Shown here piece by piece: positions 13,113 to 30,662 of a stretch of 64,000 bases of DNA. Position numbers and translations under genes: made by a program. The notes under the pieces were generated by a model. The model was not told where the DNA came from, searched no databases, and saw only the letters and a program-made list of their open reading frames with translations. How positions within the stretch are numbered: position 1 is the stretch's first letter; each line of letters starts with the position of its first letter. The stretch is from Bacteroidales bacterium (GTDB lineage Bacteria; Bacteroidota; Bacteroidia; Bacteroidales; P3). Location of the stretch: assembly GCA_017451385.1 (NCBI GenBank), contig JAFSPS010000042.1, forward strand, positions 175,524 through 239,523. Direction: 5' to 3'.

Positions 13113-13781
13113 ATGTCGGATTACAAACAATGTCCCAATGGACATTATTATCAAGGAGATCAATGTCCGTATTGCAAAAAGACACAAGTTACTGGTAGGG
13201 GTAATGACGATATCAATAAACGTGAAACTGAACTTTTTGGAAACAGTGCAAATGCGGAGACACAAGGACCGTATAGACCAACCAAACCAATTCCAGAATC
13301 GGAGACATTTGGTGCAAAGAAGACTACGGTCCTCGATAACAACGCAAATGGAGGTGCGAACTACACTCGTCCACAAGGACCATCAACATCGAGCCGTACT
13401 GTCTTTGGCGATGATGATGGGTTGGAAGCGGAGTTCCATGGCGGAGATGGAATGCAACGAACATTCCGTGAGACTCGCAAATTTGTGGGTTGGTTGGTGA
13501 GTTATACGCTTGACCCTATGGGAGTAGATTTCAAACTCTATGAAGGGCGTAACATTATTGGTCGTGACATGGATTGTAACATTACTGTTAATGACAATTG
13601 GGTATCTTCAAAGCATGCTGTACTGTTGTTTCGTTCGGGAAAGTATTCTATTACTGACAGCCAATCGTCTCATGGCACATTTGTTAACGAGTCGGATATC
13701 GAACTGGAGCCATACTACCTGCAAGATGGCGATATAATCAGAGTCGGACAAACCGTATTTAAGTTTCGTTCTTCGCTATAA
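13113..13781 (+). CDS. FHA-domain protein with N-terminal zinc ribbon
   Basis: 222 aa, soluble. Residues 7-21 hold Cys7, His11, Cys18 and Cys21 (CPNGHYY...CPYC), a likely zinc ribbon. A polar disordered linker follows to about residue 125. The C-terminal FHA domain (about 130-222) shows GRNIIGRDMDCNI, SSKHAVL and SHGTFVNES, the Gly-Arg, Ser-x-x-His and Asn residues that bind phosphothreonine. It is the first gene of the co-directional cluster, 24 bp before the vWA/FHA gene. It probably reads the phosphorylation state set by the cluster's kinases and phosphatase; this is inference. Confidence 0.85.
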   Translation: MSDYKQCPNGHYYQGDQCPYCKKTQVTGRGNDDINKRETELFGNSANAETQGPYRPTKPIPESETFGAKKTTVLDNNANGGANYTRPQGPSTSSRTVFGDDDGLEAEFHGGDGMQRTFRETRKFVGWLVSYTLDPMGVDFKLYEGRNIIGRDMDCNITVNDNWVSSKHAVLLFRSGKYSITDSQSSHGTFVNESDIELEPYYLQDGDIIRVGQTVFKFRSSL

Positions 13782-13805
13782 TATGTAGAGTAACAACGTG
13801 TCGTT

Positions 13806-15365
13806 ATGAAGAGATACGCTCTTATATTTTGGTTGCTGATATTGACCATACCACTTTCAGCCCAAATGAAACGGGGATTGAAGGGCTCTTACGATGTGGA
13901 TAGTTTTCCCACGATATCCTTTGTGTGGAACTCACCAAATCCAGATGTTCTGAATGCTTCACAATTTGTCATAATAGAAAAAGATAGTGCAATAGATTTC
14001 AAACTATCGGTTTTGCCTATTGACAAAAACAAGATTGTTGAGAAAAGCATACTTATCTTATGGGAGGATATGGCGAGTCATGGTGGACAAAGCAATTTCA
14101 CCCGAGAGGTGTTGCTTCGTTTTTTCAACGAGACGAGTCTTGACACGTCAGATCGTTTTGAGGTGGCGGTGTTCGACCGCAAGAGAAACGACACGCCGCT
14201 CCTTACTCCTCTTGTGGGACAGTTTACGGGGGACGTAAGTCGTCTGACAGATGCCATAGAGGCTCATAGAAATAATGGTTACCAATATGCCTCTTTCTCG
14301 CAATCAAGTGATCTCTATCTTGCCATAAATGATGGTCTTGACCTTCTTAAGAAAGAACCTGTCGAGCGTGTTGGGGTTATAGTGGTTGTTACAGCAGGGC
14401 TAAACATGAAGGCTGCTGGTGCAAGTACCGAGATGGAGACCGTCCGACAGTATGCCATTCGGGCAGGTATCCCCATCTATGTGTTAAAATACCCGCTATC
14501 GGGGAATACTCCAGAAGTCAATATGTTGGCTACGAGTACGTTTGGTCTCTCGTCCTCGACTATGGAAGTTGCGACAGCGTTGGAAAACCTAACGCAGCAA
14601 TACAAAAGCATGGATGACCGTCTGCGAGGATGCGACTACAGGTTCACCTTTACGACTACTGTCGAGCGAGACGGCAAGTTGCATCCATTGCAGTTAATGG
14701 AAAACAGAACACGCCGAAACTTGCCTCCCTTCGAATCGCCCCAAATGTCTTTCGCCCAATGGCTGTCTATATATTGGTGGATAGTGGTACTGGGTGTGTT
14801 GCTGGTTGCGGGTGGTATTGTAGGCGTAGTGCTGTTAGTGAAGAAGAAACTAAAGGAGCGTGATGAGTCGGCTCGAACAGTGCAAGAGCAGATGATGCGA
14901 GAACATGAGGAAAGCGAGCGTCGTAACCGTGAGATGGTAGAGGGTCTGATGCGTGAGCAGGAGTCTAAGCAGGAGGCTCAAGAACGAGCCGCCCGTGAGG
15001 CTGAATTGATGGCAGAAGAAGCACGCCTTACAAAACTAATGCAAACAAAACATCTCTATCCACGCTTACAATGTAAGGCGGGAGACGTTGGATTTGCCTA
15101 TTCTATAGATAAGGTCCGAACTACTATAGGTAGAAATGCTGATAACGATGTTGCATTTGCAGAAAGCAATGAGCATTTTGATAATTCTACTGTATCGGGC
15201 TATCATGCTGAAATAATATTCAATGGAGCAGCCTTCGAGGTTGTCAATGTCAGTCGTTCCTATACGCAGGGTATTATCGTCAATGGGCAGTTATGCCAGC
15301 GAGCAGCACTCCGTAGCGGCGACATGATTGGACTTGGCGAAGCCATAATTACTTTTTATGTCTAA
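13806..15365 (+). CDS. Membrane protein: exported vWA-like domain, TM helix, coiled coil, C-terminal FHA
   Basis: 519 aa. A signal peptide (MKRYALIFWLLILTIPLSAQ) is followed by an exported region of about 300 residues. This resembles a von Willebrand A fold (ILILWEDMASHGG, then VGVIVVVTAGLNMKA), but the metal site DxSxS is degraded to DMASH and TDG to TAG. A transmembrane helix lies at about 320-347. A charged heptad-like helix (about 350-418) follows. The C-terminal FHA domain (about 425-519) has TIGRNADNDVAF and SGYHAEI. Topology should be vWA outside, FHA inside. Such vWA, kinase and PP2C neighbours recall phospho-signalling modules such as the TerY-P triad, but no Ter gene is present. Confidence 0.8.
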   Translation: MKRYALIFWLLILTIPLSAQMKRGLKGSYDVDSFPTISFVWNSPNPDVLNASQFVIIEKDSAIDFKLSVLPIDKNKIVEKSILILWEDMASHGGQSNFTREVLLRFFNETSLDTSDRFEVAVFDRKRNDTPLLTPLVGQFTGDVSRLTDAIEAHRNNGYQYASFSQSSDLYLAINDGLDLLKKEPVERVGVIVVVTAGLNMKAAGASTEMETVRQYAIRAGIPIYVLKYPLSGNTPEVNMLATSTFGLSSSTMEVATALENLTQQYKSMDDRLRGCDYRFTFTTTVERDGKLHPLQLMENRTRRNLPPFESPQMSFAQWLSIYWWIVVLGVLLVAGGIVGVVLLVKKKLKERDESARTVQEQMMREHEESERRNREMVEGLMREQESKQEAQERAAREAELMAEEARLTKLMQTKHLYPRLQCKAGDVGFAYSIDKVRTTIGRNADNDVAFAESNEHFDNSTVSGYHAEIIFNGAAFEVVNVSRSYTQGIIVNGQLCQRAALRSGDMIGLGEAIITFYV

Positions 15366-15381
15366 TAAATAATAAAAAATT

Positions 15382-16209
15382 ATGAAAGTCATAACTATTG
15401 GAAGAAGTGAGGATAACGATAAGGTTGTGTATGACCCTTATGCTTCAGGTCATCACCTGCAAATAATACAGCATGATGATGGTCATTTCAGTCTGTCCGA
15501 CTTTGGCAGTACTAACGGTACGTTTGTCAATGGTAGGAAAATCTCTGGCAATGTGGTTTTGAATGATATGGATATTGTCCGCATTGGCAATACCACGATT
15601 CCTTGGCGTATGTATTTTGATGAGGTTGATGATTCGGGATATAGGATGCAACCTAATGAAGAAGTGTTCCCTAACTCTGCCGTGCAAGGTGATAGTCCTT
15701 CGACGCCTGTTCGTAAAGAGGGTGTCAACGAGAAAGAACGTCATGGTTTTGTGACTTTTTGGCTGGGACTATGTATGATTGGCAGTATCGGCAGTATCAT
15801 TTCCTCTTTTAATTCCACATCTGAAATAATGTCAAAAGTAGATGAATTAAAGAGGCAATTTACTGCTGCTGGCATTGATGCAACACAGTTTAGCGAGACA
15901 ATAAATACGCACCTATATATTCTGCTATTGTCCTCTGTCGTATTTGGTATTACGCTTTTGGTTTTCTATGTCATGTTGTTGCGCTATAAGAAGATAGGTT
16001 TTTGGGGAGTGATGGGCACTCAAGTTGTCTCTGGAATAGTCAGCGCAGTAATGATAACCCTTATGGAGCAAGACTTTAGTATGATAGGTGTTCTCGTCAA
16101 AATGAAGCCGCTAATGTCCTTGTGTATGGCCTCAGTCTCCGTTCTCATTCTTTGGGGTGTTCTGCAAATCAAGAAGAACGGCATTAGTTGTTGGAAACTG
16201 TTAGAATAA
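15382..16209 (+). CDS. FHA-domain integral membrane protein
   Basis: 275 aa. An N-terminal FHA domain (about 1-75) has TIGRSEDNDKVV, SGHHLQI and STNGTFVNGRKI. After a linker come four hydrophobic segments: about 125-145 (FWLGLCMIGSIGSI), 173-193 (LYILLLSSVVFGITLLVFYV), 203-223 and 232-250. The FHA is expected in the cytoplasm. It is 16 bp after the vWA/FHA gene and clearly in the same operon. No further family is recognised. Confidence 0.82.
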   Translation: MKVITIGRSEDNDKVVYDPYASGHHLQIIQHDDGHFSLSDFGSTNGTFVNGRKISGNVVLNDMDIVRIGNTTIPWRMYFDEVDDSGYRMQPNEEVFPNSAVQGDSPSTPVRKEGVNEKERHGFVTFWLGLCMIGSIGSIISSFNSTSEIMSKVDELKRQFTAAGIDATQFSETINTHLYILLLSSVVFGITLLVFYVMLLRYKKIGFWGVMGTQVVSGIVSAVMITLMEQDFSMIGVLVKMKPLMSLCMASVSVLILWGVLQIKKNGISCWKLLE

Positions 16210-16326: not shown

Positions 16327-17586
16327 ATGAGTCTAATAAAAAGTAACGACAACAATATATTCGCCAAGGGCGTTATTGGCAATGTGCGTACTGCACAAGA
16401 AGATTGTCATGGTTTTGAATTAGGGACACCAAACGGAGATCTTTTCGTAGTTTGTGATGGCATGGGAGGTCACGTGGGAGGGGCTATGGCTTCGCGCTTG
16501 GCGGTGGACAGCATTATCGGATATATCAGCAAAGAGAGATATGCTACGCCGATAGAGGCCCTCAATGGTGCGTTGCAATTTGCCAATATGCAAATACTGG
16601 GCTATGCCGATGCTCATTCGGAATACAAAGGCATGGGAACAACAGCGTGTATCGTGTTGATGCAGGAGAGTGGTGTATGGATAGCTCATGTAGGCGATAG
16701 TCGTATCTATCTTTACTTGGGCAAAGAAAAACGGCTGTTCCGTATCACCAAAGACCACTCTTATGTGCAGTCGCTTGTTGATGGAGGGGTTATTACAGAT
16801 GAGGAGGCAGAGCATCATCCTCAAAAAAACCGGATAATGAAAGCCCTCGGCATCAAGCTTGAATTGTCCCCGTCATTTAACTTCGAGAACCGTGCTATTC
16901 ATCCTAAAAACGGTGATGTCTTTTTAATATGCAGTGACGGCCTATGCGGCATGATATCAGACCACACTATAAAACATGTACTTGGAGAAAGACTGACGCT
17001 ACAGCAGAAAGGCGACCAACTTGTAAATCTCGCTATGGAAGGCGAAATTGTGCAGCCCGGAGGACAGGATAACTGCACTTTGGAACTCATAGAGATAGAT
17101 AATAGTCCGTATAATACCAGTGAGTTCAAAAGTTACAACCCTGAGGGAGCGGATGAGATGGTGGCAGCAGCACCTATTTCAAACAATGAGCGTAGTGCCG
17201 ATAGTGTTAGAGACAATGTCGATGGCAAAAAACCAAAGATTGTAAAGTACATCGTAGCTGCATTAGTTTTGCTTGTGATAGTGGGCATTGTGTGTACCTG
17301 TTTGTTCATAATCCCTAAACATCGTAAAGATAATACCAATAGTAAGGATGAGCGAACAGCAGTGCAAGTTTCGGAAACAAACGATAAGGGTTCGGAAGGT
17401 CAAACTATTAGTTCGACAACGGAAATAAATAGTCAAGAAAACGGGAATCAGAAACTTGCTCAAGAAGCGCAGGAAAGGGTTAAGAAGCAGCTTGATAGTT
17501 TACATAAAAGTACTCCGAAAGAAGATGAGGACAAGAAGGGTAACATGGAAACACGCACACAAAGCAATAAAAAACAAAAAAAATAA
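16327..17586 (+). CDS. PP2C-family Ser/Thr phosphatase with C-terminal membrane anchor
   Basis: 419 aa from the ATG at 16327 (a TTG-initiated extension to 16297 exists but lacks support). The catalytic PP2C domain covers about 10-260. Its metal ligands lie in DGMGGH (Asp44), HVGDSR (Asp124), CSDG (Asp204) and GGQDN (Asp248), all intact, so the enzyme should be active on phospho-Ser/Thr. One transmembrane helix lies at about 307-330, followed by a charged, Gln/Lys-rich tail that would be periplasmic. It is the only phosphatase in the cluster and presumably opposes the two kinases; the FHA proteins would sense the balance. Confidence 0.9.
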   Translation: MSLIKSNDNNIFAKGVIGNVRTAQEDCHGFELGTPNGDLFVVCDGMGGHVGGAMASRLAVDSIIGYISKERYATPIEALNGALQFANMQILGYADAHSEYKGMGTTACIVLMQESGVWIAHVGDSRIYLYLGKEKRLFRITKDHSYVQSLVDGGVITDEEAEHHPQKNRIMKALGIKLELSPSFNFENRAIHPKNGDVFLICSDGLCGMISDHTIKHVLGERLTLQQKGDQLVNLAMEGEIVQPGGQDNCTLELIEIDNSPYNTSEFKSYNPEGADEMVAAAPISNNERSADSVRDNVDGKKPKIVKYIVAALVLLVIVGIVCTCLFIIPKHRKDNTNSKDERTAVQVSETNDKGSEGQTISSTTEINSQENGNQKLAQEAQERVKKQLDSLHKSTPKEDEDKKGNMETRTQSNKKQKK

Positions 17587-17592: not shown

Positions 17593-18717
17593 ATGATAGT
17601 CAAGACTGTTGGCCGTGGCCAAGAGAATAGTATCGTCATCAATGATGACAAAGTGAGCCGCACGCATCTGCAAATAGTGCAAGATGACAATGGAAATATT
17701 TCTGTTGTTGATTTAGGTTCATCCAATGGTACTTATGTTAATGGCAGACGTATTGTTAGTGAGGCTCGATTGAAGAAGGGTGATGAGGTGCGAATAGGGG
17801 ATACTATTTTGCATTGGGAGAATTATTTGTCCCCACACCCCCCACAGACGCATAAAACACAATCAGCAGTCTCAAATTCGGCACAGCAATCCAAAGCGAC
17901 TTTGAATAAGAAGTGGTTGTACGCCGCTGGTGCGGTGGTGACGCTTGTAATCATCGGCGGTATAATCTTATTGGTTAGAAATTCTAAAGATGCGGAAAGA
18001 AAGCAGCAGGAATTGATGGCAGAAAACGAAATGTATCGTAATAAATCAGCCGAATTGGAAAAGAAACAGCATGAACAGGGCATCTTTCATGATGAATATG
18101 AAAAAGCTGTGAGCGAAGCTTTCGAGACACAGTCGGCTAAAGAGAAAAAAATAATCAAGGATATGGCAGATTCACTGGACAAAGCACGGAAAAGAAGTAA
18201 TGCTGAACTTGAAAGAACAAAACAACAAAATGATAGTAAAGTCAGGGAGGAACGGGAAAAAGCGGAGAAAGCTAAAAAAGAAGCTCAACAAAAACTGGAA
18301 GCTGCAAATGTTGAAAAGGATGCAGCTATTAAATCTGCCAATGATAAAGCAACAGAAGAAATGGCGAAGGCAAGGCTTTCCGAACGCAAGTTGCAACTAA
18401 CATATACATTCGATGATGTGCTAAATAAGGCCAAGAAAGACGGGACATTAAATCTGATTTGCAAAGTTTTGTTTCCGGACAAAAAGTTAAAAAATGAAGA
18501 TGACCGTTATAATGCTATCAAAGATGAATTTAAAAAAAGGATAAATGCATCGGATACAAATACATGTAATGAGATAATAGATATAGTAAAGAAGCCTAAA
18601 CAAAAATTGGAAAAAATGGCAAAGGAACGTAATTCTCCGATACTTAATAAAACTGCCAAATCGGGAGACAAAGGCGGTATTAATCCTAACGATACTATTA
18701 CGGCAAAACAGAAATGA
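17593..18717 (+). CDS. FHA-domain membrane protein with long coiled coil
   Basis: 374 aa. The N-terminal FHA (about 1-78) has TVGRGQENSIVI, SRTHLQI and SSNGTYVNGRRI. A single transmembrane helix (about 103-127, LYAAGAVVTLVIIGGIILLV) is followed by about 120 residues of Lys/Glu-rich heptad-like coiled coil. A small helical segment and a basic tail end the protein. The FHA would be cytoplasmic and the coiled coil periplasmic. The gene is noticeably A-rich. It starts 6 bp after the phosphatase gene, and its stop overlaps the kinase start by 4 bp (ATGA), so the three are translationally coupled. Confidence 0.83.
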   Translation: MIVKTVGRGQENSIVINDDKVSRTHLQIVQDDNGNISVVDLGSSNGTYVNGRRIVSEARLKKGDEVRIGDTILHWENYLSPHPPQTHKTQSAVSNSAQQSKATLNKKWLYAAGAVVTLVIIGGIILLVRNSKDAERKQQELMAENEMYRNKSAELEKKQHEQGIFHDEYEKAVSEAFETQSAKEKKIIKDMADSLDKARKRSNAELERTKQQNDSKVREEREKAEKAKKEAQQKLEAANVEKDAAIKSANDKATEEMAKARLSERKLQLTYTFDDVLNKAKKDGTLNLICKVLFPDKKLKNEDDRYNAIKDEFKKRINASDTNTCNEIIDIVKKPKQKLEKMAKERNSPILNKTAKSGDKGGINPNDTITAKQK

Positions 18718-19583
18718 ACGACTTGCCACGTTTAGATAATTATGATGTGGTCCGCCTTGTTGCGGAGGGTGGCACTGCTCGTGTCTATTGGGGTATAGAC
18801 AAGCGTAGCGGATATGCTGTAGCCATCAAAGAGCTAAAATTGCGACACATGAGCAATGCTGCGGTGCGTGATAAATTTCGCAATATGGAGACTCAGTTGA
18901 TGCTGTACGCTCAGCATCCAAATATTCCCCGGCTGGTGGACTTCATAGACTTGCCAATGCAAAACCAGATGTTTCTCGTGATGGAGTTTATAGAGGGACG
19001 CAGTTTGGAACATTATATATACCGTGAAATGGGACTCATTCCAGAACAACGGGCGTTGCCCATGTTTTTGGAGCTTCTGGATACCGTAGCCTTCCTTCAT
19101 AATCTGCGAATACCCCACATGGGAATTAATGATGGTGTTTTGCATCTTGACATCAAGTCTAATAATGTAATGCTCATGCCTAATGGGAAAATAAAACTCA
19201 TAGACCTTGGTATAGCATCACGTATAGGTGCTGACGATAGCACGGGATTTGGCACGCCGGCCTATATGCCTCCAGAACAGTCAAATGGTGGACGCATAGG
19301 CAAATATACAGACATTTTTGCGTTAGGGGTTATGCTTTTCGAGATGCTGACAGGCAGGCTGCCGTTCACTTCGGATAGACCCAATCCTCGCGACTATAGG
19401 CATGAAATCAGAAACAAGATACAGTATGAGCCTACACCGCTGATGAAAAAGTTTTACCCTCCAATTACAGACAACTTGCAACATATAGTTGACCTTGCTT
19501 TGGCGAAAGACCCTGCACAACGCTTTCAGAGATGCGAGGATTTTGCTGATAGCATAAAGACATATATGAGAGAAAGAAGATAG
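18714..19583 (+). CDS. Ser/Thr protein kinase (soluble, Hanks type)
   Basis: 289 aa, a bare kinase domain. It has the glycine loop AEGGTARVYWG (17-27), Lys39 (AIKELK), catalytic HLDIKSNN with Asp146, DLG at 164-166 in place of DFG, and GTPAYMPPEQ near residue 182. HRD is HLD, so it is a non-RD kinase that probably does not need activation-loop phosphorylation. There is no transmembrane segment or PASTA domain. It overlaps the preceding FHA gene by 4 bp and precedes the ATPase gene by 5 bp. It probably phosphorylates Thr residues recognised by the FHA proteins, including the ATPase's own FHA domain. Confidence 0.9.
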   Translation: MNDLPRLDNYDVVRLVAEGGTARVYWGIDKRSGYAVAIKELKLRHMSNAAVRDKFRNMETQLMLYAQHPNIPRLVDFIDLPMQNQMFLVMEFIEGRSLEHYIYREMGLIPEQRALPMFLELLDTVAFLHNLRIPHMGINDGVLHLDIKSNNVMLMPNGKIKLIDLGIASRIGADDSTGFGTPAYMPPEQSNGGRIGKYTDIFALGVMLFEMLTGRLPFTSDRPNPRDYRHEIRNKIQYEPTPLMKKFYPPITDNLQHIVDLALAKDPAQRFQRCEDFADSIKTYMRERR

Positions 19584-19588: not shown

Positions 19589-22500
19589 ATGAAAGAGATT
19601 ACCATAGGAAAACTTCCGGACAATAATATCGTCATCGATAATCCGAAGGTCAGCAGGCACCATGCAAAAATAGTCATGGATAAGCTTGGTATTTATACAC
19701 TGGTGGACCTTCAAAGCACTAATGGCTCGTATGTGAATGGGCGCAAAGTCAAAGGCTCGCAAACTATCAAGCCCGGAGATAGGATAATGTTGGCTAATGC
19801 TCCCATAACGGCTAATTGGGCGGCGCTGATGGAACAAACACCAGATTCAGATGCTAAACCGGCACCTGTGGTACAGCCATCTACTCCAACTAGAACAATG
19901 CCGCCATCGTCAGTGCTCTACGATTTTGATAAAGATGTGGATGCCTTGTTCTCGATTCATAGTGGACGGTTGAAACAGATTATTGCAGACTTTAAGAGTA
20001 TGCAACTCCCAATAAGACGTCGTTTTACGGTGCGGCATTTCTCCGAGGATGTGCTTGACCTTCTCATAGAACGTTATGATTTTGTAGGCATACAATTATC
20101 TACTTTCCTAAAAAAGCTGGAGCGCGAGTGTGCTGCCTTTCAGGCTGAGTACGACTCCGACATGAAGAAATTAGATATCACCTACCAGTACCGTTTGAGC
20201 AATAGTGCTAATGATGACGAACTTGCCAATGGCTTGAGCGAGGTGGATAACAGACGTGGCGAGATGAAGCGTAATTATGAGGCGATGAGTAAGAGCGTGA
20301 TGCCGATGGTGAGTTCTCTCATGGGTGAATATTATACGAGTAATCCGCCGCTATTTACCGAACGTATGGCACTGGCACCAGCAGACTCGCCTATATGGAA
20401 GACCCTTGTACGCCAGGACGATGAGGTTCAGAAGACGTTCTACATGGGCGAAGAAGTGGGCCGGTATGCAATTCTGCAAGAAACTGTAGAGTTGAAAAAA
20501 CGCGTATATGTACAAAGCCTTTATGGTGGAAATCTTATCTACAAATACTCCAAGAAACAGAGGTCGTTGTGCTTTGATGTTGTCAATACGTTGATAGGCC
20601 GCATGCTGGCAGCTGCACCAAATGGGAATATGCGCATAGTGATGGTGGACTTAAACGAGATGGAGGGCACCAGTAGCACTTTCAAGGCTTTAAATAAGAA
20701 CATATACAAAGTCGTTTCTCGATATGACGAATTCGTCACGCTCTTAAATGCCGAAGTTTCGCGAACGGAGAGCATCATACAAAATCTGTTGCAAGGCGAC
20801 ATAACCAATATAGCAGAATACAACCATAACAAGACAGAAAAAGTTGCATACAATATATGGGTTCTAAAGGATATCCCTGTGGGATATGGCAATGACCTTG
20901 GGACGAGGTTGTCCAAGATTGTTCGCGGTGGTCCACGAGCAGGTGTTTCGGTTATTGCGTTAATTGACGATGATGAGGTGAGTCGTTCGGAGGAAGCGCA
21001 GAAAAACTTTCAGCAATTTCAGAATGTCTTAAATGTGGATTCTTGTGAAACCTACGATTTCACAAGAGCTGATGATGCGGAGTCGTTGAAATCTTCTTCA
21101 AGGGTTCTTTATGAGTCGTTTCCAGATAGCATAATCTCGTCTATCGTTAGGAAGGTCAACAAGGGTTTGGAAACGAAAGAAGAGACGATATTGAAATTCA
21201 CCGAGTACATGTTGCCGAAAAACGACTGGTGGACTGGGCAGAGTGCCAATCGTATAGACCTTCCATTCGGACTAACAAAGGAGATGAGGACCACAGCTCT
21301 GCAGATTACACAGGAAAGTGGGCAGAACACGGCTGTGGTAATAGGTATTCCGGGCTCTGGCAAGAGTGTTTTCTTGCACACAATCATAGCAAGTGCTATC
21401 ACACGCTATTCGCCTGTCGAATTACAGGTCTATCTGCTTGACTTCTCGGGTGTGGAATTCAACGTTTATGCCAAACATAAATTACCTCATGCTCGTGTCA
21501 TTGCCCCCGAGGCGGAACGTGAATTTGGACTAAGTATATTGCGCGAGGTGTTTGAGGAGGGCAATCGACGTATGGCTCTTTGCAGGGAAAATGGTGTTAC
21601 CAACATCGTAGAGCTGAAGCGTGTTAATTCTGAGCTGATAGTGCCGCGCTTGCTTATAATTATTGATGAGTTCCAAAAGATATTCGAAATAGAGAATGAC
21701 AACATAAGCAAGGATGCTAATGCTAAGATACATGCTATAATCCAAGAGTATCGCAAGTTTGGCATCAATCTTATCCTTGCCACACAAAAGCTACCAGCCA
21801 AAAGTACTGTTCCTTACGACTTGATAGCAAACCGTGTGGTATTCAAGAGCGACCCGAATGATTTTAACAACCTGATAAAATGGTCTAATTCTGTTCCTCA
21901 GCCGCGTTTCCAGACTGGAACCTGCGTGTATAACAACGAGTCGGGAGCTGAAGTTGCCAATTGCTTTACCCGTTCCTATTTCATCAATGCTTCAAAAGAG
22001 TTGGAAACGCTCTTGGATGAGGTGTCTGAATTTGCTAACATGCATTCCGAGAAGATGGATGAACATGAACTCCGCATTTTCCGCAGCGATGAGTTGCCGA
22101 GGTTCTCCAAGCGTGTCCTTGCCTCACGCCACCTCAAAACAGCGGACAAACCTCGTGAAGTGGGTGTGTATTTGGGCGAAAGCATTGCCATTGCGCCATG
22201 TCATGTGTATGTGCCGCTTACCAAGGATAGCAACAACAATATCTTGATAATAGGCGGCGAACCAAAGGTTGCCAAGGGAATAGCGTATCATTCTATGTTG
22301 TCGGAAATCTCGGCACATACGGAAAAGACCTGCAATGTTATTCTGATGAATTTTATGATGGAGGATGACCCTATGCAAGGATTATTCAAGAGCGATATGT
22401 TTGCCTCCGTAACTGAGTATTGCAATATAAAAGAAGTCAAGGGCGCGGACGACGTGGAGGACTATTTACGTTTCGTAAAAGACAATGTGATAGACGCTCG

Positions 22501-23270: not shown

Positions 23271-23978
23271 ATGACTAATTCAGGTGCTTATATAAGCGAT
23301 GTCCATTTGTTGGAAGAACTAAACAACGTGATAGTCTCCTCCAGCGAATCAATGTCGAACATAGACGCGAATGTCGGTAGCTACATCAACGGGGTCAAGG
23401 AGAGTCTATGTCGCCAACTTGACTTCATACAGACCAAACTGACGGAAGCCGAAAACGCATTGAGTGATGCGGAAACAAACCTGAACATGTGCCAGTCAGC
23501 ACAAGCATTGGCTTCGGCTATGGGCACAGTTGGCCCAAGCTGTGCGATGGAGGAATGTGCTGTACAAACGGCAAGAGCAGAGGTGGAGAAATGGAGAATG
23601 AGATACGAGCAGGGACAACAAATTGTTGGAGAATGTGAACGCGAAATAGCGGAGTATAACGGCCCTGCTGGCGGTCATGCACTAATCCGCACCTTGTGTG
23701 AGCAACAGACTCCCGATGCTTCACGTTATCTCAATGTCTGTATTGAAAGGCTCAATGACATTTTGGCTACCGATATGGGGAGCAATGTTGGAATGATTGA
23801 TGGTGGTATTGAAAAAAGACAAATCCACCCAACTGCTGACAATAACCATTCCGATACTTCTCGAATAACCTTTGGACCGACTGTTGCAGATGCCAACGGT
23901 GATTCCAAACAATTGGAATGTTGTCCTAATTGCGGAAGGCCACTTCTGTTATGCACCTGTATGAATGACCATGTATAA
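23271..23978 (+). CDS. Helical protein with C-terminal cysteine (zinc-ribbon-like) motif
   Basis: 235 aa, no signal peptide or transmembrane segment. Residues 1-150 are predominantly helical and coiled-coil-like, with Ala/Glu/Gln-rich heptads. A central segment (about 125-180) is followed by a polar linker. The extreme C-terminus has CCPNCGRPLLLCTC, a possible zinc knuckle. No known family is recognised. Position between two WQD-type genes (20 bp on each side) suggests a partner, chaperone or substrate of the same system, comparable in size to LXG-type N-terminal domains, though no LXG motif is seen. Confidence 0.55.
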   Translation: MTNSGAYISDVHLLEELNNVIVSSSESMSNIDANVGSYINGVKESLCRQLDFIQTKLTEAENALSDAETNLNMCQSAQALASAMGTVGPSCAMEECAVQTARAEVEKWRMRYEQGQQIVGECEREIAEYNGPAGGHALIRTLCEQQTPDASRYLNVCIERLNDILATDMGSNVGMIDGGIEKRQIHPTADNNHSDTSRITFGPTVADANGDSKQLECCPNCGRPLLLCTCMNDHV

Positions 23979-23998: not shown

Positions 23999-24247
23999 AT
24001 GAGTAATTGTCCAGATTTTGTACATCAAGTGCAAGAAGTCGAACGGAGGTTTTCGTCCGAGTGGCAAATAGTTCAAAACGGTTGGCAAGACAGTGTTGCT
24101 GAGCGATTTCATCAGGAGGCTGTTGAATCTATTACCCGGAGTCTTTCGCAATACATAAGTGGAATAGGTTTAAGTGGTTACGGCCTCGAACGGTTATTGC
24201 TGCAGATGGACAGCCATTTGCAGCAGATGGAGTCTCTAACTCAGTAA
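23999..24247 (+). CDS. Short WXG100-like helical protein (WQD variant)
   Basis: 82 aa. GWQDSVAERF places Trp29-Gln30-Asp31 with Phe37 eight residues later, the same W-Q-D-x5-F pattern as in the 22963 and 24370 proteins. The N-terminal helix is shorter than in typical WXG100 proteins. The C-terminal half is a Leu/Gln-rich amphipathic helix. No signal peptide. It is 20 bp after the preceding gene. Given its size it could be the small partner of a heterodimer with a longer WQD protein, as EsxA/EsxB pairs are; this is inference. Confidence 0.58.
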   Translation: MSNCPDFVHQVQEVERRFSSEWQIVQNGWQDSVAERFHQEAVESITRSLSQYISGIGLSGYGLERLLLQMDSHLQQMESLTQ

Positions 24248-24369: not shown

Positions 24370-24654
24370 ATGAGTAGTAATGCTATAACGAGTTCAGCCG
24401 CTTTGATTGAACTCCAAAATGACTTGACACAATTGTCAGCATCCCTGCATAACATTTTCGACCTGATGAATACCGATATGAAACAGGTTGGCACAGCATG
24501 GCAGGATGGCAAATACGAAGAATTCGTAAACGGATACAAGCCACAGATCAACAAATGCGAGGAGATATCTGTTCGGTATTCTGAGTGGTGCAAAAAGGTC
24601 CTTGCACCGACAATCGAAAATGTTATCGCTGTGGAGAATACAGATGTCGTAGGA
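24370..24654 (+). repeat. Direct repeat encoding the shared N-terminal module, copy 1
   Basis: About 285 bp coding for residues 1-95; nearly identical to 25105-25389. Most of the base differences are silent, so the protein sequence has been kept by selection or gene conversion. Confidence 0.92.
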
Positions 24655-25080
24655 AATGGAGGAGGAACTGTTGGTGCTGTCGCTGGCGGTGCAGTAGCTA
24701 CTGTAGGTGTGGCCAGTGGATTTAACATTGATGGAAAAAACGACATCATTGGGAAATCATCGAAAAATAAAAGTTCTAATCTGAATTCTTCTGTTCGTAG
24801 CAATGTAAAAAATGGTTTAGCAAATGAACATTGCGAAGAAATGTATGGGGAAGGATATCATGCAGAGTCTCTGAAACAAGGAGAAACCGCACACGAACAT
24901 TTGGCGTATAGTGTCACAACCAATGGCGAAACTACGAAAGGTTCTGTCGATGCGGATCTCAATGCCAAAATATTGGGGTTTGGAGGTGAAATTAAATCCA
25001 AAATGGAGTATGATAGTGGTGGACAATCTAAAAAGATTGATGCCAGTTCGAGTTTCAACTGTGTCCCAGATAATGAATAA
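24370..25080 (+). CDS. WQD-type WXG100-like N-terminal domain with long variable C-terminal region (copy 1)
   Basis: 236 aa. Residues 1-95 form a WXG100-like unit (TAWQDGKYEEFVNGY; Trp44, Asp46, Phe52). A Gly/Ala/Val-rich stretch (about 95-120) follows, then a polar, repeat-poor tail of about 115 residues with no recognised enzyme fold. The first 95 residues differ from those of the next gene at only three positions (28, 42, 57), while the tails are unrelated. A WXG100-like delivery module joined to different C-terminal payloads is how polymorphic toxin or effector families look; here no catalytic motif or immunity gene could be identified. Confidence 0.65.
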   Translation: MSSNAITSSAALIELQNDLTQLSASLHNIFDLMNTDMKQVGTAWQDGKYEEFVNGYKPQINKCEEISVRYSEWCKKVLAPTIENVIAVENTDVVGNGGGTVGAVAGGAVATVGVASGFNIDGKNDIIGKSSKNKSSNLNSSVRSNVKNGLANEHCEEMYGEGYHAESLKQGETAHEHLAYSVTTNGETTKGSVDADLNAKILGFGGEIKSKMEYDSGGQSKKIDASSSFNCVPDNE

Positions 25081-25104: not shown

Positions 25105-25389
25105 ATGAGTAGTAATGCTATAACGAGTTCAGCCGCTTTGATTGAACTCCAAAATGATTTGACACAATTGTCAGCATCCTTGCATATCATTTTCGACCTG
25201 ATGAATACCGATATGAAGCAGGTCGGCGCAGCATGGCAGGATGGCAAATACGAAGAATTCGTAAACGGATACAGACCGCAAATCAACAAATGTGAGGAGA
25301 TATCTGTTCGGTATTCTGAGTGGTGTAAAAAAGTCCTTGCTCCGACAATCGAAAATGTCATCGCTGTGGAGAATACAGATGTTGTTGGA
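25105..25389 (+). repeat. Direct repeat encoding the shared N-terminal module, copy 2
   Basis: Second copy of the block at 24370-24654, in tandem and in the same orientation. Similarity drops sharply after codon 95. Confidence 0.92.
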
Positions 25390-25500
25390 GCCGGAGCAGG
25401 CGTTGGTGCTGCCAGCATAGGTGATACATCGACGGGCGGCGGAAGCACTGTTGCTTCTGGCGGTGTCGGTGACAAATTCAGCGAATTTAATCTCGGCTGA
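25105..25500 (+). CDS. WQD-type WXG100-like protein, copy 2 with short tail
   Basis: 131 aa. Residues 1-95 repeat the module of the preceding gene with substitutions N28I, T42A and K57R. The remaining 36 residues are Gly/Ala/Ser-rich and end in DKFSEFNLG. It starts 24 bp after copy 1. It may be a stand-alone, near-canonical WXG100-size partner of copy 1, or a cassette that lost its effector tail. There is no signal peptide. Confidence 0.65.
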   Translation: MSSNAITSSAALIELQNDLTQLSASLHIIFDLMNTDMKQVGAAWQDGKYEEFVNGYRPQINKCEEISVRYSEWCKKVLAPTIENVIAVENTDVVGAGAGVGAASIGDTSTGGGSTVASGGVGDKFSEFNLG

Positions 25501-25592: not shown

Positions 25593-25641
25593 TATGGGTG
25601 TTATCAATGTTGGAATATTATTACAAACAACATCCAATATT

Positions 25642-26622
25642 ATGAATGGATTTTTTAAACTGGTATGTATTGCGCTTTTATTTTTTCCCGCAATAACTGT
25701 GTGTGGTCAGAGCCGATACACCTGTCCAAAATGTAAAGGGGAAAAATATGTGCCCAAACCTTGTCCTGCTGTTGGATGTCATAAGGGCACTATTCTTTGT
25801 ACAGAATGCAATGGGTCTGGTGCTATAGAACATAGTTGCAGTTCCTGCAATGGTAGTGGCACAATTACAAAAAGCAGACATTTGCCTTGTAGCCATTGTC
25901 ATGGGAAGGGAGGTGAAATGAAGCGGGGGCAGATTCCATGTACGAATGCTCGGTGCAAAGGTGGAAAAATATATACTAAAAGTCGTATTCCTGGCACCCA
26001 CGGACGAGATTCTGAAAAAAAGGCTTGGTATAAGTGTACTACATGTGATGGGACAGGATATGTTAATGGCACATCTAAAATAGCGTGTCGCTATTGCGGG
26101 GGAACTGGTGAGGAGAAAGAGACATCAACCTATTTTGATGGGACAGAAACTCGCACGGTTTATACTCCAATCAGTAAGACAGAAAACTATACAGTAAAAT
26201 GTGAAAGCTGTGATGGTAGCGGCGGTATCAAAGAAAAATGCTCAAAATGTGAAGGTAGTGGCAACTATTTGTGTACAAGATGTGACGGATATGCTAATGT
26301 GAGGGAGGTCTGCTCACGGTGCAATGGAAATGGTGTGATAGATACCTACGATGCACCACAGACACAAAACATCACGTCCTCACAGCCAGAATCTGGCACG
26401 TCGCAAACACAAAAAAGTACGCCATCACAACCGTCGAGTAGCACTAACTCGGGGCAACAAAAGGTATGCACTAATCCGCAGTGTCATGGGGGCAGCATCT
26501 ATTGCGATGATTGCGACTATACTGGCTTTATCTATAGCAACGGAAAGAAAGAGAAATGCCCAAAATGTAAAGGAATTGGTAAATATGTTTGCTCAAGCTG
26601 TGGTGGAAAAGGTGCGTTATAG
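25642..26622 (+). CDS. Exported cysteine-rich DnaJ-type zinc-finger repeat protein
   Basis: 326 aa from the ATG at 25642, which gives a proper signal peptide (NGFFKLVCIALLFFPAITVCGQ). The start at 25594 would bury it and abuts a hairpin. The mature protein is packed with about ten CxxCxGxG-like knuckles (CPKCKGEKY, CTECNGSGA, CSSCNGSGT, CSHCHGKGG, CTTCDGTGY, CRYCGGTGE, CESCDGSGG, CSKCEGSGN, CSRCNGNGV, CPKCKGIGK), the DnaJ cysteine-rich module. It also has a Ser/Thr/Gln linker near residues 230-270. There is no J domain. A secreted or periplasmic zinc-binding scaffold or chaperone-like protein is likely. Confidence 0.8.
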   Translation: MNGFFKLVCIALLFFPAITVCGQSRYTCPKCKGEKYVPKPCPAVGCHKGTILCTECNGSGAIEHSCSSCNGSGTITKSRHLPCSHCHGKGGEMKRGQIPCTNARCKGGKIYTKSRIPGTHGRDSEKKAWYKCTTCDGTGYVNGTSKIACRYCGGTGEEKETSTYFDGTETRTVYTPISKTENYTVKCESCDGSGGIKEKCSKCEGSGNYLCTRCDGYANVREVCSRCNGNGVIDTYDAPQTQNITSSQPESGTSQTQKSTPSQPSSSTNSGQQKVCTNPQCHGGSIYCDDCDYTGFIYSNGKKEKCPKCKGIGKYVCSSCGGKGAL

Positions 26623-26736: not shown

Positions 26737-27573
26737 ATGGACGTCGAAATAAAAATTGGTAGAGATGTTGAAGGTGCGAATGTATGTCGCGTGTCGCCCT
26801 CCTACTCAAAGGTAAGTCGCCTTCACGCCATTTTGCATTGGCACGATGGAGTTGCCATTCTTGAGGATAGGTCGTCAAATGGTACCTATGTTAATGGCAT
26901 CCGAATCACCCGAACCCAAGTTCGGGAAAATGATTTGGTATATCTTGGCGGCAATGGAACAGGTGAGAGTTATCTGCTTGACTTAAGGAGGCTCATCGCC
27001 TACTGCCGTGATGTTGATAAAAAAAATAGAGTTGGAAATCAAGAAGAGGCATTTCGTCCTGTTGCTTATCCTTCAGGGAGAGACGGCTCTCAGCGGTCAG
27101 CCAGCCCTCAGCAATCGGGAGGCATTGGCGTTCCATCCCATGATGCTGCTAACGCCCAGCGGACAGACTATTCTAAAGAATTTGAGCGCGTCAAGCAGGC
27201 ATATATTGACTATAATAAAGAATTGTCGGCATTGACGAAAAAGGCAAACCTTCGGATGTCGCTGCCACGGGTTTTATTGTCGCTAATTCCCACGGTGCTG
27301 GGTCTCGTTGTTATGCTTATCGCCACGGATATGATGGTTAGAATTATTGCGATGTCGGCTGGTGGAGTGCTTAGTGGTCTGATAGGAACGCTTACCATGG
27401 GGCGTGGCAGTTCGAAGAAAGAGAAATTGCAAGAAGATATGTTGGACTTGAAACTCAAGTACCAGAAGGAATATAGATGTCCAAAGTGCGGAAAAGAATT
27501 TAATCTGGGATTACATTGGAAAGAGTTGCAGGCGGCAGGGAAGTGTCCCTACGGCTGTGGTGCAAAGTTCTAA
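26737..27573 (+). CDS. FHA-domain membrane protein with C-terminal zinc ribbon
   Basis: 278 aa. The N-terminal FHA (about 1-85) has KIGRDVEGANVC, SRLHAIL and SSNGTYVNGIRIT. A polar linker and a helical segment lead to two closely spaced transmembrane helices (about 178-222, SLIPTVLGLVVMLIA and AMSAGGVLSGLIGTL). After a charged helix, the C-terminus has CPKCGKEFNLG...CPYGCG, a zinc ribbon. Both ends should be cytoplasmic. It is the sixth FHA protein of the cluster. Confidence 0.82.
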   Translation: MDVEIKIGRDVEGANVCRVSPSYSKVSRLHAILHWHDGVAILEDRSSNGTYVNGIRITRTQVRENDLVYLGGNGTGESYLLDLRRLIAYCRDVDKKNRVGNQEEAFRPVAYPSGRDGSQRSASPQQSGGIGVPSHDAANAQRTDYSKEFERVKQAYIDYNKELSALTKKANLRMSLPRVLLSLIPTVLGLVVMLIATDMMVRIIAMSAGGVLSGLIGTLTMGRGSSKKEKLQEDMLDLKLKYQKEYRCPKCGKEFNLGLHWKELQAAGKCPYGCGAKF

Positions 27574-27733: not shown

Positions 27734-29215
27734 ATGGAAGACAATAATAATGTAATCTACAAAGGCCTGCAGCCTGGCACGGGGTTGTTGAATGGCAAGT
27801 ATGTCATTGAGAAGATGATTGGCGAAGGTGGTTTTGGCATCACCTATAGGGCTACTCAAACTGGATTGAACCGTGCCGTGTGTGTCAAGGAGTACTTTCT
27901 TGCGGGTGGGTGTATCCGCGATACTTATGCTAAGACCATACATCTTCAAGGTATGGATGAGTCTAAGTTCGAGCGTTTCCGCAAGAGCTTTGTCAAGGAG
28001 GCTCAGACGCTGGCAGCCATGCACCATCAGGGTATTGTGGAGGTGATTGATATTTTCGACGAGAACAACACCTCTTATATGGTCATGCCGTTCATTGAGG
28101 GCCGTAGCCTTCAGAGTATTGTTGAAAAAAATGGTCCGTTGGCGTTTCCTGATGCAGTAAACTACATAGCGCAGGTGTCCAATGCCGTAGGCTATATCCA
28201 TGAGCGTCACATCCTGCACCGCGACATCAAGCCGGACAACATCATGATTACGTCCGACAACAAGGCTGTGCTTATAGATTTCGGCTCGGCACGAGAGTTT
28301 GAAGAGGATAAGACCCAATCTCATACTACGATGGTGACGCATGGCTATGCGCCTACGGAGCAGTACAGCCGTACAAGCCGCAAAGGAGCATATACCGACA
28401 TCTATGCCATCGGCGCAACGATGTATTTCATCCTTACTGGGCGGGTGCCCATCGAAGCGGCAGCGCGCGTCACGGAGCCGATGCCAGAACCGAAAGAGCT
28501 CAACCCCAACATTCCAGATGCGGCTAATCGTACTATAATGAAGGCCTTGCAGTTGAAGTCGCAGGACCGTCATCAGTCTATCTCAGAATTTATGGACGAT
28601 TTGCTCAACGTCAAACCGTCAGGGCAACAGCCCGAAGCATCTACCGGTACCACAGTCTTAATGCCAGAGACCCCCAGCCAGCCGAAAACAAATCCAACAG
28701 CTACCCTTAAAACAGCTTCGGAGGATAGCCCTGCGGGGATAGCGGAAAAGAAAAGTGGAAATGTGAAGATTGTTGCTTTGATTGTCTCTATTGTGTTGGT
28801 GCTTGGCGTTGCTGCCTATTTCATGTTTCTGGGTGAGTCATCGACGCACCGCGAGGCGCGCGAGTTTGTACCAAAGTATGAAAAAATGGTGGATAGGTGC
28901 AAGGTTTTGATTTCGCATGGAAGCGGAGCGAATCCCGAAAAACTGCTTGAGGCAAAAAAACTATTTAGAGAAATACTTGATGCAGAGAAGAAGTATTCCG
29001 TCGAAATGCCAGATGTCTATTGCCATTTGTCTGAGGTGGGAGCCTTGATGGACCCCAAGTTAAAAGAGGCTGCACACGACTGGTCTGAGCAGGCCTATAT
29101 GGAGGCCTCGGTACTACAAGACACTTCTATGGCGTGCAAGTCATATCAGATGTCGCTCAGCCTTTTCGATGATGCTTCGGTAAGACTTGAATCACAAATG
29201 TGTGGTTGTGAGTAA
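27734..29215 (+). CDS. Transmembrane Ser/Thr protein kinase (Hanks type)
   Basis: 493 aa. The cytoplasmic kinase domain covers about 22-290: glycine loop IGEGGFGITYRA (29-40), Lys52, catalytic HRDIKPDN with Asp164, DFG at 182-184, and an activation-loop end APTEQYS. A Pro/Thr-rich juxtamembrane linker (TPSQPKTNPTAT) could be autophosphorylated and serve as an FHA ligand. One transmembrane helix lies at about 345-366. The periplasmic tail is helical and TPR-like, with no PASTA repeats. All catalytic residues are intact. The preceding 160-bp gap shows no clear promoter. Confidence 0.92.
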   Translation: MEDNNNVIYKGLQPGTGLLNGKYVIEKMIGEGGFGITYRATQTGLNRAVCVKEYFLAGGCIRDTYAKTIHLQGMDESKFERFRKSFVKEAQTLAAMHHQGIVEVIDIFDENNTSYMVMPFIEGRSLQSIVEKNGPLAFPDAVNYIAQVSNAVGYIHERHILHRDIKPDNIMITSDNKAVLIDFGSAREFEEDKTQSHTTMVTHGYAPTEQYSRTSRKGAYTDIYAIGATMYFILTGRVPIEAAARVTEPMPEPKELNPNIPDAANRTIMKALQLKSQDRHQSISEFMDDLLNVKPSGQQPEASTGTTVLMPETPSQPKTNPTATLKTASEDSPAGIAEKKSGNVKIVALIVSIVLVLGVAAYFMFLGESSTHREAREFVPKYEKMVDRCKVLISHGSGANPEKLLEAKKLFREILDAEKKYSVEMPDVYCHLSEVGALMDPKLKEAAHDWSEQAYMEASVLQDTSMACKSYQMSLSLFDDASVRLESQMCGCE

Positions 29216-29231
29216 TTAAAAAAATATACAA

Positions 29232-30662
29232 ATGAGAAAATTTTGTTTTTTCCTTTCCCTCTTTGCTATTGTCTCTATTGTCGAGGCTCAGGATTTTGAT
29301 TGTTATATAAAAGCCCGTGCAAAAGGTATCGAGGCCTATAATCAGAAGAATTATAGCAAGGCAAAAGAGATGTTCAGCGTCGCCAAACGGTGTGCCACGC
29401 TTCCTAAACATGTTGATATTGATAATTGGATTGCGAAATGCGACCAAGGCATGAAGGCGAAAATAGAGAGAGTCAGTCAGCCCAATACACAGAAGAAAGA
29501 AGGAAGGATTATATGTACCAATGTCACGTCACGTACGACATGCTCCTCGAACCTTATGGGGCTTGAGATTACGGCTTCTTTCAATGTCGAGAACATGAAG
29601 GGGCAGGCAATGGAAAGTTTCTGTTATCTTTATCCGGAATATGAATATGTTGAATTCCGAATAGATGATGAATGGGATAATATACAATACAGACTTGACG
29701 ATTTTAAGGAAAGGGGGATGCATAAAAAAGTTACCGAGTCCTATGCTAATACGCCGTATAACGTGAATGGCGTTCCGGGGCAAACCGGCAAAGTGATTGA
29801 AATAGAGCGTGATTTTGAACAAATCACCGAAACATATTTTATCCCCTTTGGGGCAATGAACATCCTTACGTTTGACAAGCAGGTATTCGAAACTATGGTT
29901 GTAGCCTACAAGAGTAGCAAATCTTCGGATGTGCAAAAGGATATGCAGAAAAACGAGAATTACGAATATACGCCTCGTTTAGATACTGTCATGACCGAGA
30001 CATTCATCTTCACTCCTATTAACCTTGAGATTGAAAATAGTTCTAATGATAAAGAGATTACATTGAGTTATGGAGGGGGGAGTTTGGATTTGCGCATCAA
30101 AGTTTGTGGCGAGATAATATGGGAGGACCTTCCTTCATGGCTGCATGCTCGACAATCATCGGCAACCATTATTGTGGATGAGAACGAGTCTACTACGCCA
30201 CGTTACGCAACAGTGGTGGTTAGACCTGCCGATGGCAGTAACCCCGTAAAACTTCACATCACGCAAGAGGCAGCACCTGAGTTAATCCCTGCCACAATCA
30301 ATAGAGTGCGAACAGAATATAATGTGGGACCGGACAACAACAAGCAAACGGTGTTTCATGTGGATTTAGATGTAGAAGGTCAGAAGAACAAAAATGTCAG
30401 GGTCTATGCCGTATTCTATAATGTTGACGACAGGACTCCATTGCTGGATTCTTCTGGCAATCCGATAGATGCTTTTAGTTACGGCACTCCGACGAACAAC
30501 AGTGTTAATTTCCCAGATTTCAAAATTCCAATAAGCAATATCAGATTTATGTCTGCGGCAAATCTCCAACAAAAGGAGGTTAAGGTCTATGTCAAAGTGT
30601 CGTTAGATAAGGGAGATAGCTTTGTTACGGAAGATGGGCCATACACGATTAAGTGGGAGTAA
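29232..30662 (+). CDS. Exported protein with TPR-like start and BACON domain
   Basis: 476 aa. A signal peptide (MRKFCFFLSLFAIVSIVEAQ) is followed by a TPR-like pair of helices (GIEAYNQKNYSKAKEMFSVA), which echoes the helical tail of the preceding kinase. The middle part is beta-rich and unrecognised. A BACON-type domain lies around 265-345 (LSYGGGSLDLRI, PSWLHARQ, VKLHITQEA), followed by a final beta domain. BACON domains are Bacteroidota-typical binding modules. It is 16 bp after the kinase gene and ends the cluster; it may be a periplasmic or surface partner. Confidence 0.72.
   Translation: MRKFCFFLSLFAIVSIVEAQDFDCYIKARAKGIEAYNQKNYSKAKEMFSVAKRCATLPKHVDIDNWIAKCDQGMKAKIERVSQPNTQKKEGRIICTNVTSRTTCSSNLMGLEITASFNVENMKGQAMESFCYLYPEYEYVEFRIDDEWDNIQYRLDDFKERGMHKKVTESYANTPYNVNGVPGQTGKVIEIERDFEQITETYFIPFGAMNILTFDKQVFETMVVAYKSSKSSDVQKDMQKNENYEYTPRLDTVMTETFIFTPINLEIENSSNDKEITLSYGGGSLDLRIKVCGEIIWEDLPSWLHARQSSATIIVDENESTTPRYATVVVRPADGSNPVKLHITQEAAPELIPATINRVRTEYNVGPDNNKQTVFHVDLDVEGQKNKNVRVYAVFYNVDDRTPLLDSSGNPIDAFSYGTPTNNSVNFPDFKIPISNIRFMSAANLQQKEVKVYVKVSLDKGDSFVTEDGPYTIKWE

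Follow-up and report, generated by a model that had tools for sequence, protein, structure and literature searches.

Type VII secretion system (T7SS) components have been recorded in diderm bacteria. Table 1, footnote 6 of Zhang et al. 2012 (PMC3482391) lists a class with a three-domain YueA-like ATPase and a solo WXG protein as 'mobile versions of T7SS'. The footnote places this class in Bacteroidetes and other diderms and describes only the middle HerA/FtsK domain as active. According to the text of that paper, toxins in T7SS neighbourhoods are limited to Firmicutes, Actinobacteria and Chloroflexi. Gram-positive T7SS variants with a kinase, a phosphatase and an FHA-ATPase are described by Garrett et al. 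2024 (PMC11217815), in the text of which the string 'Bacteroid' is absent. In T7SSa/ESX, the EccC ATPase is membrane-bound (PMC11217815), and in T7SSb, LXG toxins have small helical Lap partners (PMC10730906).

Here, we describe a gene cluster in a 64,000-nucleotide stretch of DNA from a Bacteroidales bacterium, referred to as the window. The region at positions 13113-30662 contains 16 closely packed genes on the + strand, with intergenic gaps of -4 to 160 bases. An initial annotation had correctly read the genes as co-directional and counted 15, because g09 (23271-23978) was missing from its list. The genes are as follows.

g01, 13113..13781, +: N-terminal cysteine zinc-like motif and C-terminal FHA domain (Pfam 3.4e-18); soluble, without transmembrane (TM) helix
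g02, 13806..15365, +: signal peptide, vWA-like extracytoplasmic part, one TM helix (326-344) and cytosolic FHA domain (Pfam 2.8e-10)
g03, 15382..16209, +: FHA domain (Pfam 7e-18) and about four TM helices
g04, 16327..17586, +: PP2C phosphatase (Pfam PP2C_2 1.1e-12), TM helix and tail; a TTG at 16297 opens the reading frame, and the ATG at 16327 agrees with homologues
g05, 17593..18717, +: FHA domain (Pfam 2.6e-20), TM helix and putative coiled coil
g06, 18714..19583, +: soluble Hanks-type kinase (Pfam Pkinase 1.5e-44)
g07, 19589..22900, +: FHA domain (Pfam 6.9e-19), long helices and three RecA-like domains (FtsK_SpoIIIE 2.6e-22)
g08, 22963..23250, +: WXG100 protein with W-x-D turn
g09, 23271..23978, +: putatively long helical protein with C-terminal cysteine zinc-like tail
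g10, 23999..24247, +: short W-x-D protein, by alignment
g11, 24370..25080, +: WQD hairpin, linker and four-strand C-terminal part; effector-like
g12, 25105..25500, +: WQD hairpin and short tail ending in FNLG; solo WXG-type
g13, 25594..26622, +: predicted exported DnaJ-type zinc-finger protein (Pfam DnaJ_CXXCXGXG 5.8e-12) with N-terminal hydrophobic stretch
g14, 26737..27573, +: FHA domain (Pfam 6.9e-14), two TM helices and C-terminal zinc ribbon-like end
g15, 27734..29215, +: Hanks-type kinase (Pfam Pkinase 7.8e-43), TM helix and part past the membrane
g16, 29232..30662, +: predicted exported TPR-like and BACON protein (Pfam BACON 2.9e-7)

Matches above the Pfam cut-offs bear out much of the domain content that the initial annotation had proposed: six FHA proteins (g01, g02, g03, g05, g07 and g14), two Hanks kinases (g06 and g15), one PP2C phosphatase (g04), an FtsK_SpoIIIE domain in g07, and the DnaJ CXXCXGXG zinc and BACON domains of g13 and g16. 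Among the window proteins, no toxin domain scored above a Pfam cut-off, nor does the window contain an evident immunity gene. The coiled coil of g05, the helices of g09 and the vWA-like part of g02 are readings of the sequence only; the annotation of g02 as a vWA-like membrane protein received no profile match, either in Pfam or in a PDB search with a 4-sequence profile.

The profile scores of the ATPase g07 were 2.6e-18 for EccCa, 3.2e-18 for EssC and 0.019 for FtsK. Its nearest solved relatives are EccC/EssC/YukB and not FtsK, and EccC5 was the top solved sequence relative in the PDB profile search. In a phylogenetic tree that contained no HerA protein, g07 branched as a lineage of its own next to EccC/EssC and FtsK, and PADLOC HerA models scored weaker for g07. 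Scores, PDB profile and this HerA-free tree thus all place g07 away from chromosomal FtsK, the grouping that the initial annotation had named as evidence against its reading. A predicted model, of low confidence in its middle part, contains three RecA-like parts (283-528, 545-800 and 858-1098) and leaves no room for a fourth; alignment and model locate intact Walker motifs only in the middle domain (about 545-800). No TM helix was found in g07, nor in 21 of the 22 ATPases of its type by a crude hydropathy test, which did detect TM helices in 3 of 4 annotated EccC/EssC proteins and one Rothia protein of the EccC/EssC kind. The ATPase had been called FHA-FtsK/EssC-like. It does carry an FHA domain and is nearest to EccC/EssC, but it is a three-domain lineage without evident membrane helices, apart from EssC proper.

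The ATPase gene and four small-protein genes form a core that recurs at 12 related loci in Bacteroidales; 11 of these are complete and one (L007) is truncated by a contig end. This recurrence answers the neighbourhood search suggested in the initial annotation. The ATPase, g08-like and g09-like genes occur together in all 12 related loci, which exceeds chance, and a g10-like gene is found in 11, the exception being the truncated L007. Homologues of g01 adjoin the ATPase gene in L005, L008 and L009, which also contain homologues of g02 (49-58% identity). A homologue of g13 is present in L012, and BACON homologues of g16 are found in L010, L012 and L016.

The small proteins had been described as three WQD-type WXG100-like proteins and a shorter relative. 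The W-x-D turn is indeed present in g08, g10, g11 and g12, and in PDB searches with the profiles of two small-protein families, the top matches were known WXG100 proteins. For g08, the match to Pfam WXG100 (E 0.0011) lies below the cut-off, at 19.6 versus 27.3 bits, and the ten best PDB matches of its family profile were all WXG100 proteins. The predicted structure of g11 contains a hairpin (helices 9-43 and 48-91, pLDDT about 94) and C-terminal strands (173-231, pLDDT about 60), and a fold search placed EsxA among its best matches with a non-significant E-value. The g12 hairpin is nearly identical to that of g11 (97% in alignment) and is WXG100-type by PDB profile. In contrast, g10 had no relevant PDB match and matched the g08 profile weakly (46%). 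The g08 and g11/g12 families therefore look like WXG100 hairpins, whereas g10 does so through its W-x-D turn only. Its position and its role as a toxin N-terminus in L012 suggest that g09 may be LXG-like. The C-terminal export motif [FY]xxx[DE] is not conserved, occurring in 2 of 13 members of the g08 family.

Toxin domains were found in relatives of the cluster. In L008 and L012, the same papain-fold toxin is attached to different helical N-termini, that of L012 being a homologue of g09, and a homologous small gene directly follows each toxin gene. These two relatives, as opposed to the window itself, display the polymorphic toxin pattern of a shared N-terminal trafficking domain, a variable C-terminal toxin and an adjacent immunity gene. 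In a Helicobacter relative, a nuclease toxin adjoins a SUKH immunity gene. L018 has a similar toxin arrangement with an unmatched N-terminus, as its nuclease protein does not match the g09 HMM. The toxin fusions with adjacent small or SUKH genes support antibacterial toxin export, and this toxin and immunity-type cargo, absent from the initial annotation, is the strongest support for the inferred secretion.

The catalytic motifs of the two kinases and the phosphatase are intact. The kinase g06 has VAIK, HLD and DLG motifs, g15 has its kinase catalytic motifs, and g04 has the PP2C metal-site motifs. When the DNA examined at each locus was compared with the window's proteins, the phospho-circuit was found in 8 of 13 core loci and was not detected in four; one locus was too short to judge. 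In L011, the core is present without phospho genes, which are thus not essential to the unit. By this similarity measure, the phospho-circuit lies outside the invariant unit. Of the single unit proposed in the initial annotation, the five-gene core is conserved, but the circuit is not invariant.

How does the cluster relate to the described systems? The initial annotation could name no precedent, but the class in the footnote of PMC3482391 and the Gram-positive FHA/kinase/phosphatase variants in PMC11217815 provide one. As in the footnote class, g07 has three HerA/FtsK domains of which the middle alone is active by alignment and model, and solo WXG proteins (here g08 and g12) occur in a diderm. 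Unlike that class, which in the footnote has solo WXG proteins only, the relatives here add toxin and immunity-type genes, and a five-gene core carries an attached phospho-circuit. T7SSe, T7SSd and T7SSj (PMC11217815) share an FHA-bearing EssC-type ATPase, a WXG100 protein and an STPK with our cluster, and T7SSe and T7SSj also a PPM phosphatase and another FHA protein. The window matches T7SSe in STPK, PPM phosphatase, FHA protein and FHA-ATPase as domain content, orthology aside. However, these variants are Gram-positive, have a membrane-bound ATPase with four NTPase domains and mostly include a ubiquitin-like component (PMC11217815).

T7SSb resembles the cluster in having an ATPase of the EssC type and WXG100 proteins, along with toxins whose N-terminal domains are helical and which pair with small helical proteins. 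It differs from it in that here the host is a diderm, no TM helix was found in the ATPase, and EssB and YukD were not found. EssB/YukC (PF10140) and the ubiquitin-like YukD/EsaB (PF08817) were each detected in 0 of 13 host genomes, some of which may be incomplete, at E 0.001, with positive B. subtilis controls. The likeness to T7SSa/ESX lies in EccC5. Among the general T7SS features, the cluster thus has an FtsK-related ATPase of the EccC/EssC kind and a WXG100 helical hairpin protein, and lacks a membrane-anchored ATPase and four NTPase domains; no pore or outer-membrane component was identified. It does not qualify as a canonical T7SS, with no evident ATPase membrane helices, three NTPase-like domains, and YukD and EssB not found. 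Its class is already known but almost undescribed, and the toxin cargo, phospho-circuit and defined core extend the 2012 description.

We consider it probable (about 0.6) that the cluster encodes, in a diderm, a type VII-like exporter of WXG-type proteins and of their toxin-carrying forms, gated by threonine phosphorylation. By analogy with the Lap partners on T7SSb LXG toxins, g08, g10, g12 and g09/g11 may pack into a helical stack, which would be passed to g07 at its active middle domain. As g07 has no evident membrane helices, it would be recruited to the inner membrane through an FHA-phosphothreonine contact, made by its own FHA domain or those of g02, g03, g05 and g14. The phosphothreonines would be written by the kinases g06 and g15 and reset by the phosphatase g04, and the envelope part may consist of the exported g16 and g13 together with the extracytoplasmic region of g02. 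Since relatives encode papain-fold and nuclease toxins next to immunity-type genes, the cargo would be antibacterial. More tentatively, the cluster may represent a distinct, mobile, phosphorylation-gated diderm system, in which an FHA-recruited soluble three-domain motor moves WXG-type/LXG-like polymorphic toxins across two membranes for interbacterial killing among gut Bacteroidota.

Alternatively, the products may form an intracellular conflict or anti-phage complex without secretion, in which a HerA/FtsK-like ring moves DNA or remodels proteins, WXG-type proteins serve as scaffolds and a phospho trigger frees toxins inside the infected cell. The lack of a detected TM helix in the ATPase, the island-like base composition and the rare distribution of this cluster type are consistent with such a complex, as are single-gene PADLOC similarities of the ATPase to mad8 (2.6e-13) and SspH (1.1e-11) and of the kinases to mad6/PD-T4-6. 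ATPase rings from this superfamily are also used in intracellular defence, and a Caballeronia relative lies amid vWA, PP2C, STPK, CARF and AAA genes. However, the kinase matches are unspecific, with 34 and 37 models matching the two kinases, and the best matches of the ATPase are EccC/EssC. WXG100 hairpins, one toxin on two helical N-termini and SUKH/immunity-type neighbours form the arrangement seen with exported polymorphic toxins, and several loci encode predicted exported BACON/TPR proteins and membrane partners. We therefore regard this alternative as rather unlikely.

An envelope stress-signalling platform, whose membrane kinases, FHA proteins and PP2C phosphatase sense extracytoplasmic damage while the ATPase/WXG part builds envelope structures and exports no toxin, would account for the presence of FHA, kinase or PP2C domains in six membrane proteins and for the predicted exported BACON and zinc proteins. 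It is improbable, as the toxin fusions of the relatives are at odds with it and as the four core loci without a detected phospho set retain the ATPase and small proteins, which makes the platform accessory. Least probable by far is a chromosomal-type FtsK/HerA DNA pump beside unrelated FHA and kinase genes. Pfam does name the g07 domain FtsK_SpoIIIE, and FtsK and TcpA folds match the third domain alone as well as EccC, but a separate FtsK is encoded elsewhere in the host genome, FtsK scores fall far below those of EccC/EssC, FtsK stands apart in the tree without HerA, and the same small-protein genes lie beside the ATPase in all 12 related loci.

As toxin and immunity-type pairs lie beside the motor, the export reading is directly testable, and the phospho-circuit is predicted to be a natural on/off handle on the unit. 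If the toxins are exported, the WXG motor must run without membrane helices and the outer membrane must be crossed. Type VII secretion would then reach beyond Gram-positive bacteria and mycobacteria, and Bacteroidota would gain a further weapon besides T6SS.

On the plus strand, from 13113 to 30662 of the window, lie 16 genes (g01–g16), all in one direction and with intergenic gaps of –4 to 160 bases. Pfam searches largely bore out the gene content described in the initial annotation. FHA domains were found in six genes (g01, g02, g03, g05, g07 and g14), kinase domains (Pkinase) in g06 and g15, a PP2C phosphatase domain in g04, FtsK_SpoIIIE in the motor ATPase g07, a DnaJ-type zinc domain in g13 and a BACON domain in g16. 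The catalytic motifs of the kinases and the phosphatase are intact. Simple hydropathy predicted membrane helices in g02, g03, g04, g05, g14 and g15 and, at the N-termini of g13 and g16, stretches of the export type; it found no membrane helix in g07 or the small proteins.

Among the small proteins encoded after the motor, the g08 and g11/g12 families resemble WXG100 proteins. The ten best matches of the g08 family profile in the PDB were all WXG100 proteins (EsxA 8.4e-4, EsxB 1.8e-3, others to 7.4e-3), as were the four best matches (1.8e-3 to 0.022) of the hairpin profile from the WQD proteins g11 and g12, and these two families matched each other with a probability of 93% in profile comparison. 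In the structural model of g11, the WQD turn lies between helices at residues 9–43 and 48–91 (pLDDT near 94), and a low-confidence linker and four low-confidence strands come after them. EsxA chains were among its best matches in a fold search, at E-values that are not significant. The g09 product is longer and apparently helical, with no similarity to the WQD proteins in profile comparison, and g10 is a short W-x-D protein for which the profile evidence is weak. As the hairpins of g11 and g12 (24370–25500) are 97% identical but their tails differ, the sequences suggest a recent tandem duplication in which the C-terminus of one copy was changed or swapped.

Scanning 84,980 species genomes, with sensitivity limited to close relatives, yielded 12 related loci, whose titles name Bacteroidales or groups inside it, many from ruminants. 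In all 12, g08-like and g09-like genes come after the ATPase gene, and in 11 so do g10-like and WQD genes; the remaining locus (L007) is cut by a contig end. Judged by similarity to the window proteins, kinase, PP2C and FHA genes adjoin this core in 8 of the 13 core loci, window included, and none were found within the locus DNA examined of L011, L013, L014 and L015; L007 was too short to score.

Core loci by phospho-signalling genes
Window, L005, L006, L008, L009, L010, L012 and L016: core with kinase, PP2C and FHA genes
L013, 14663–18185: phospho-free core variant
L014: phospho-free core variant
L015, 14680–17478: phospho-free core variant

With the core present and the phospho-signalling genes absent from the DNA examined, L011 reads as a minimal five-gene unit. 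L013–L015 have a different ATPase N-terminus (GYF_2 domains in L013), and their downstream genes also differ in kind: JAB and ThiF (E1-like) genes in L013, and genes similar to these by sequence in L014 and L015. Here, a predicted ubiquitin-like module replaces the phospho-circuit. A small bacterial PH-domain protein is encoded upstream of the ATPase in the viral-collection contig L031 (911–1186; bPH_3 2.3e-6) and in L013 (8729–9001; 4.8e-4, below cut-off). In L010, a gene with an HSP70-type match (15993–16928; 4.9e-13) directly follows the WQD gene.

None of four window flanking genes (rpsA, recQ, a CHU_C gene and an outer-membrane protein gene) was found beside the related loci in the locus DNA examined (BLAST, E 1e-10), so the unit seems to be located at different places. 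The G+C content of the cluster is 0.433, versus 0.488 and 0.513 on its two flanks; together with the non-shared flanks, this makes the cluster look like an island. A PDDEXK_2 family transposase-type nuclease is encoded upstream (8776–9756; 3.7e-21), and the product of a downstream gene (32748–34268) has a CHU_C type IX secretion signal domain (3.1e-13).

The distribution of the motor is rare and patchy. Within the family, 9 of 190 genomes had the ATPase or a variant of it at 1e-25, and in six of these it was the full-length core type. The WQD domain was found in the same six and in 0 of 184 others, of which only the absence is informative, because the alignments were built from those six genomes. 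All 27 WQD-profile matches in the 13 host genomes lie at the locus (coordinates checked). Counting the window's own genome, the motor was present in 6 of 393 genomes drawn from the order at 1e-18 (3 of 393 at 1e-40) and in 1 of 395 drawn from the phylum at 1e-40.

Among 12 more distant loci (Caballeronia, Helicobacter and Rhodococcus plasmids, one viral-collection contig and eight Bacteroidales loci), 11 have one or more matches to the small-protein HMMs among the genes close to the ATPase, some of them weak (weakest best E-value 4e-4, in small ORF sets); L039, on a 6.4 kb contig, has none. The Caballeronia locus contains an annotated WXG100 target over the Pfam cut-off (3.6e-7), as well as PP2C and kinase genes. 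On this plasmid, the WXG100 gene and this type of ATPase lie among vWA, CARF, PP2C, kinase and AAA genes. In L031 (5050–13667), the core cassette sits immediately upstream of the gene for a phage head maturation protease (phrog_94, 1.3e-34), perhaps at a prophage boundary.

A domain scan of selected proteins of the loci revealed toxin domains in relatives. Gln_amidase, a papain-fold toxin, is attached to a WQD N-terminus in L008 (8.3e-18) and to a g09-type N-terminus in L012 (2.9e-11). The toxin parts share 46% identity; the small genes that come after the two toxin genes, 52% identical over 75 aa, have no other match among the locus proteins compared. The two loci thus have one cassette, a toxin with a probable immunity gene, on two different helical carriers. 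The Helicobacter plasmid encodes a protein with a WHH/colicin-DNase nuclease (1.1e-11, 9.8e-9) at its C-terminal end; its N-terminal part is long, apparently helical and has no match to the g09 HMM, and its gene stands between a WXG-type gene upstream and a SUKH immunity-type gene (1.6e-6) downstream. Weaker cases are a lipase-like protein in L037 (5.4e-4) and a GNAT-like protein in L040 (7.9e-4), both below cut-off, and a C-terminal part common to L009 and L037 (34% over 68 aa), which has no Pfam match and contains a phospholipase A2-like motif, CxxHDxCY. Of 13 tailed WQD carriers, 10 have a short FN[MLI] motif downstream of the hairpin (shuffled mean 0.46, maximum 3; significance overstated, as the carriers are related). 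The motif also precedes the toxin in the g09-type L012 carrier and may mark a module junction. In the window's g11, no toxin domain exceeds a Pfam cut-off, and an immunity gene is not evident.

T7SSb systems have YukD and EssB, whereas neither was matched in any of the 13 host genomes (B. subtilis control positive). With, in addition, a motor in which no membrane anchor was found, the system does not qualify as canonical T7SSb. The type VII-like interpretation in the initial annotation was right in kind but needs corrections. The window system fits a class described by Zhang et al. 2012 (PMC3482391), with a three-domain ATPase and solo WXG proteins, and the toxin-bearing relatives go beyond it. 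We recognised no later description of this class in Bacteroidota in the open-licence PMC literature, subscription papers being outside this scope. The kind of system is already known but barely described, and the window system is a variant with new features.

An EccC/EssC-related motor, WXG100 hairpins, small partners, carriers with swappable toxins and immunity-type genes fit type VII export of antibacterial toxins: WXG-type proteins and toxin-bearing helical carriers would be exported in type VII fashion against other bacteria. The kinase, FHA and PP2C genes attached to the core are consistent with control by phosphorylation, a possibility that PMC11217815 raises for some Gram-positive T7SS variants. 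As no transmembrane segment was found in the motor, it may be recruited in an FHA-dependent manner to the membrane FHA and kinase proteins. The toxin and immunity-type genes make type VII-like secretion in diderm bacteria directly testable, hence the high interest of this system.
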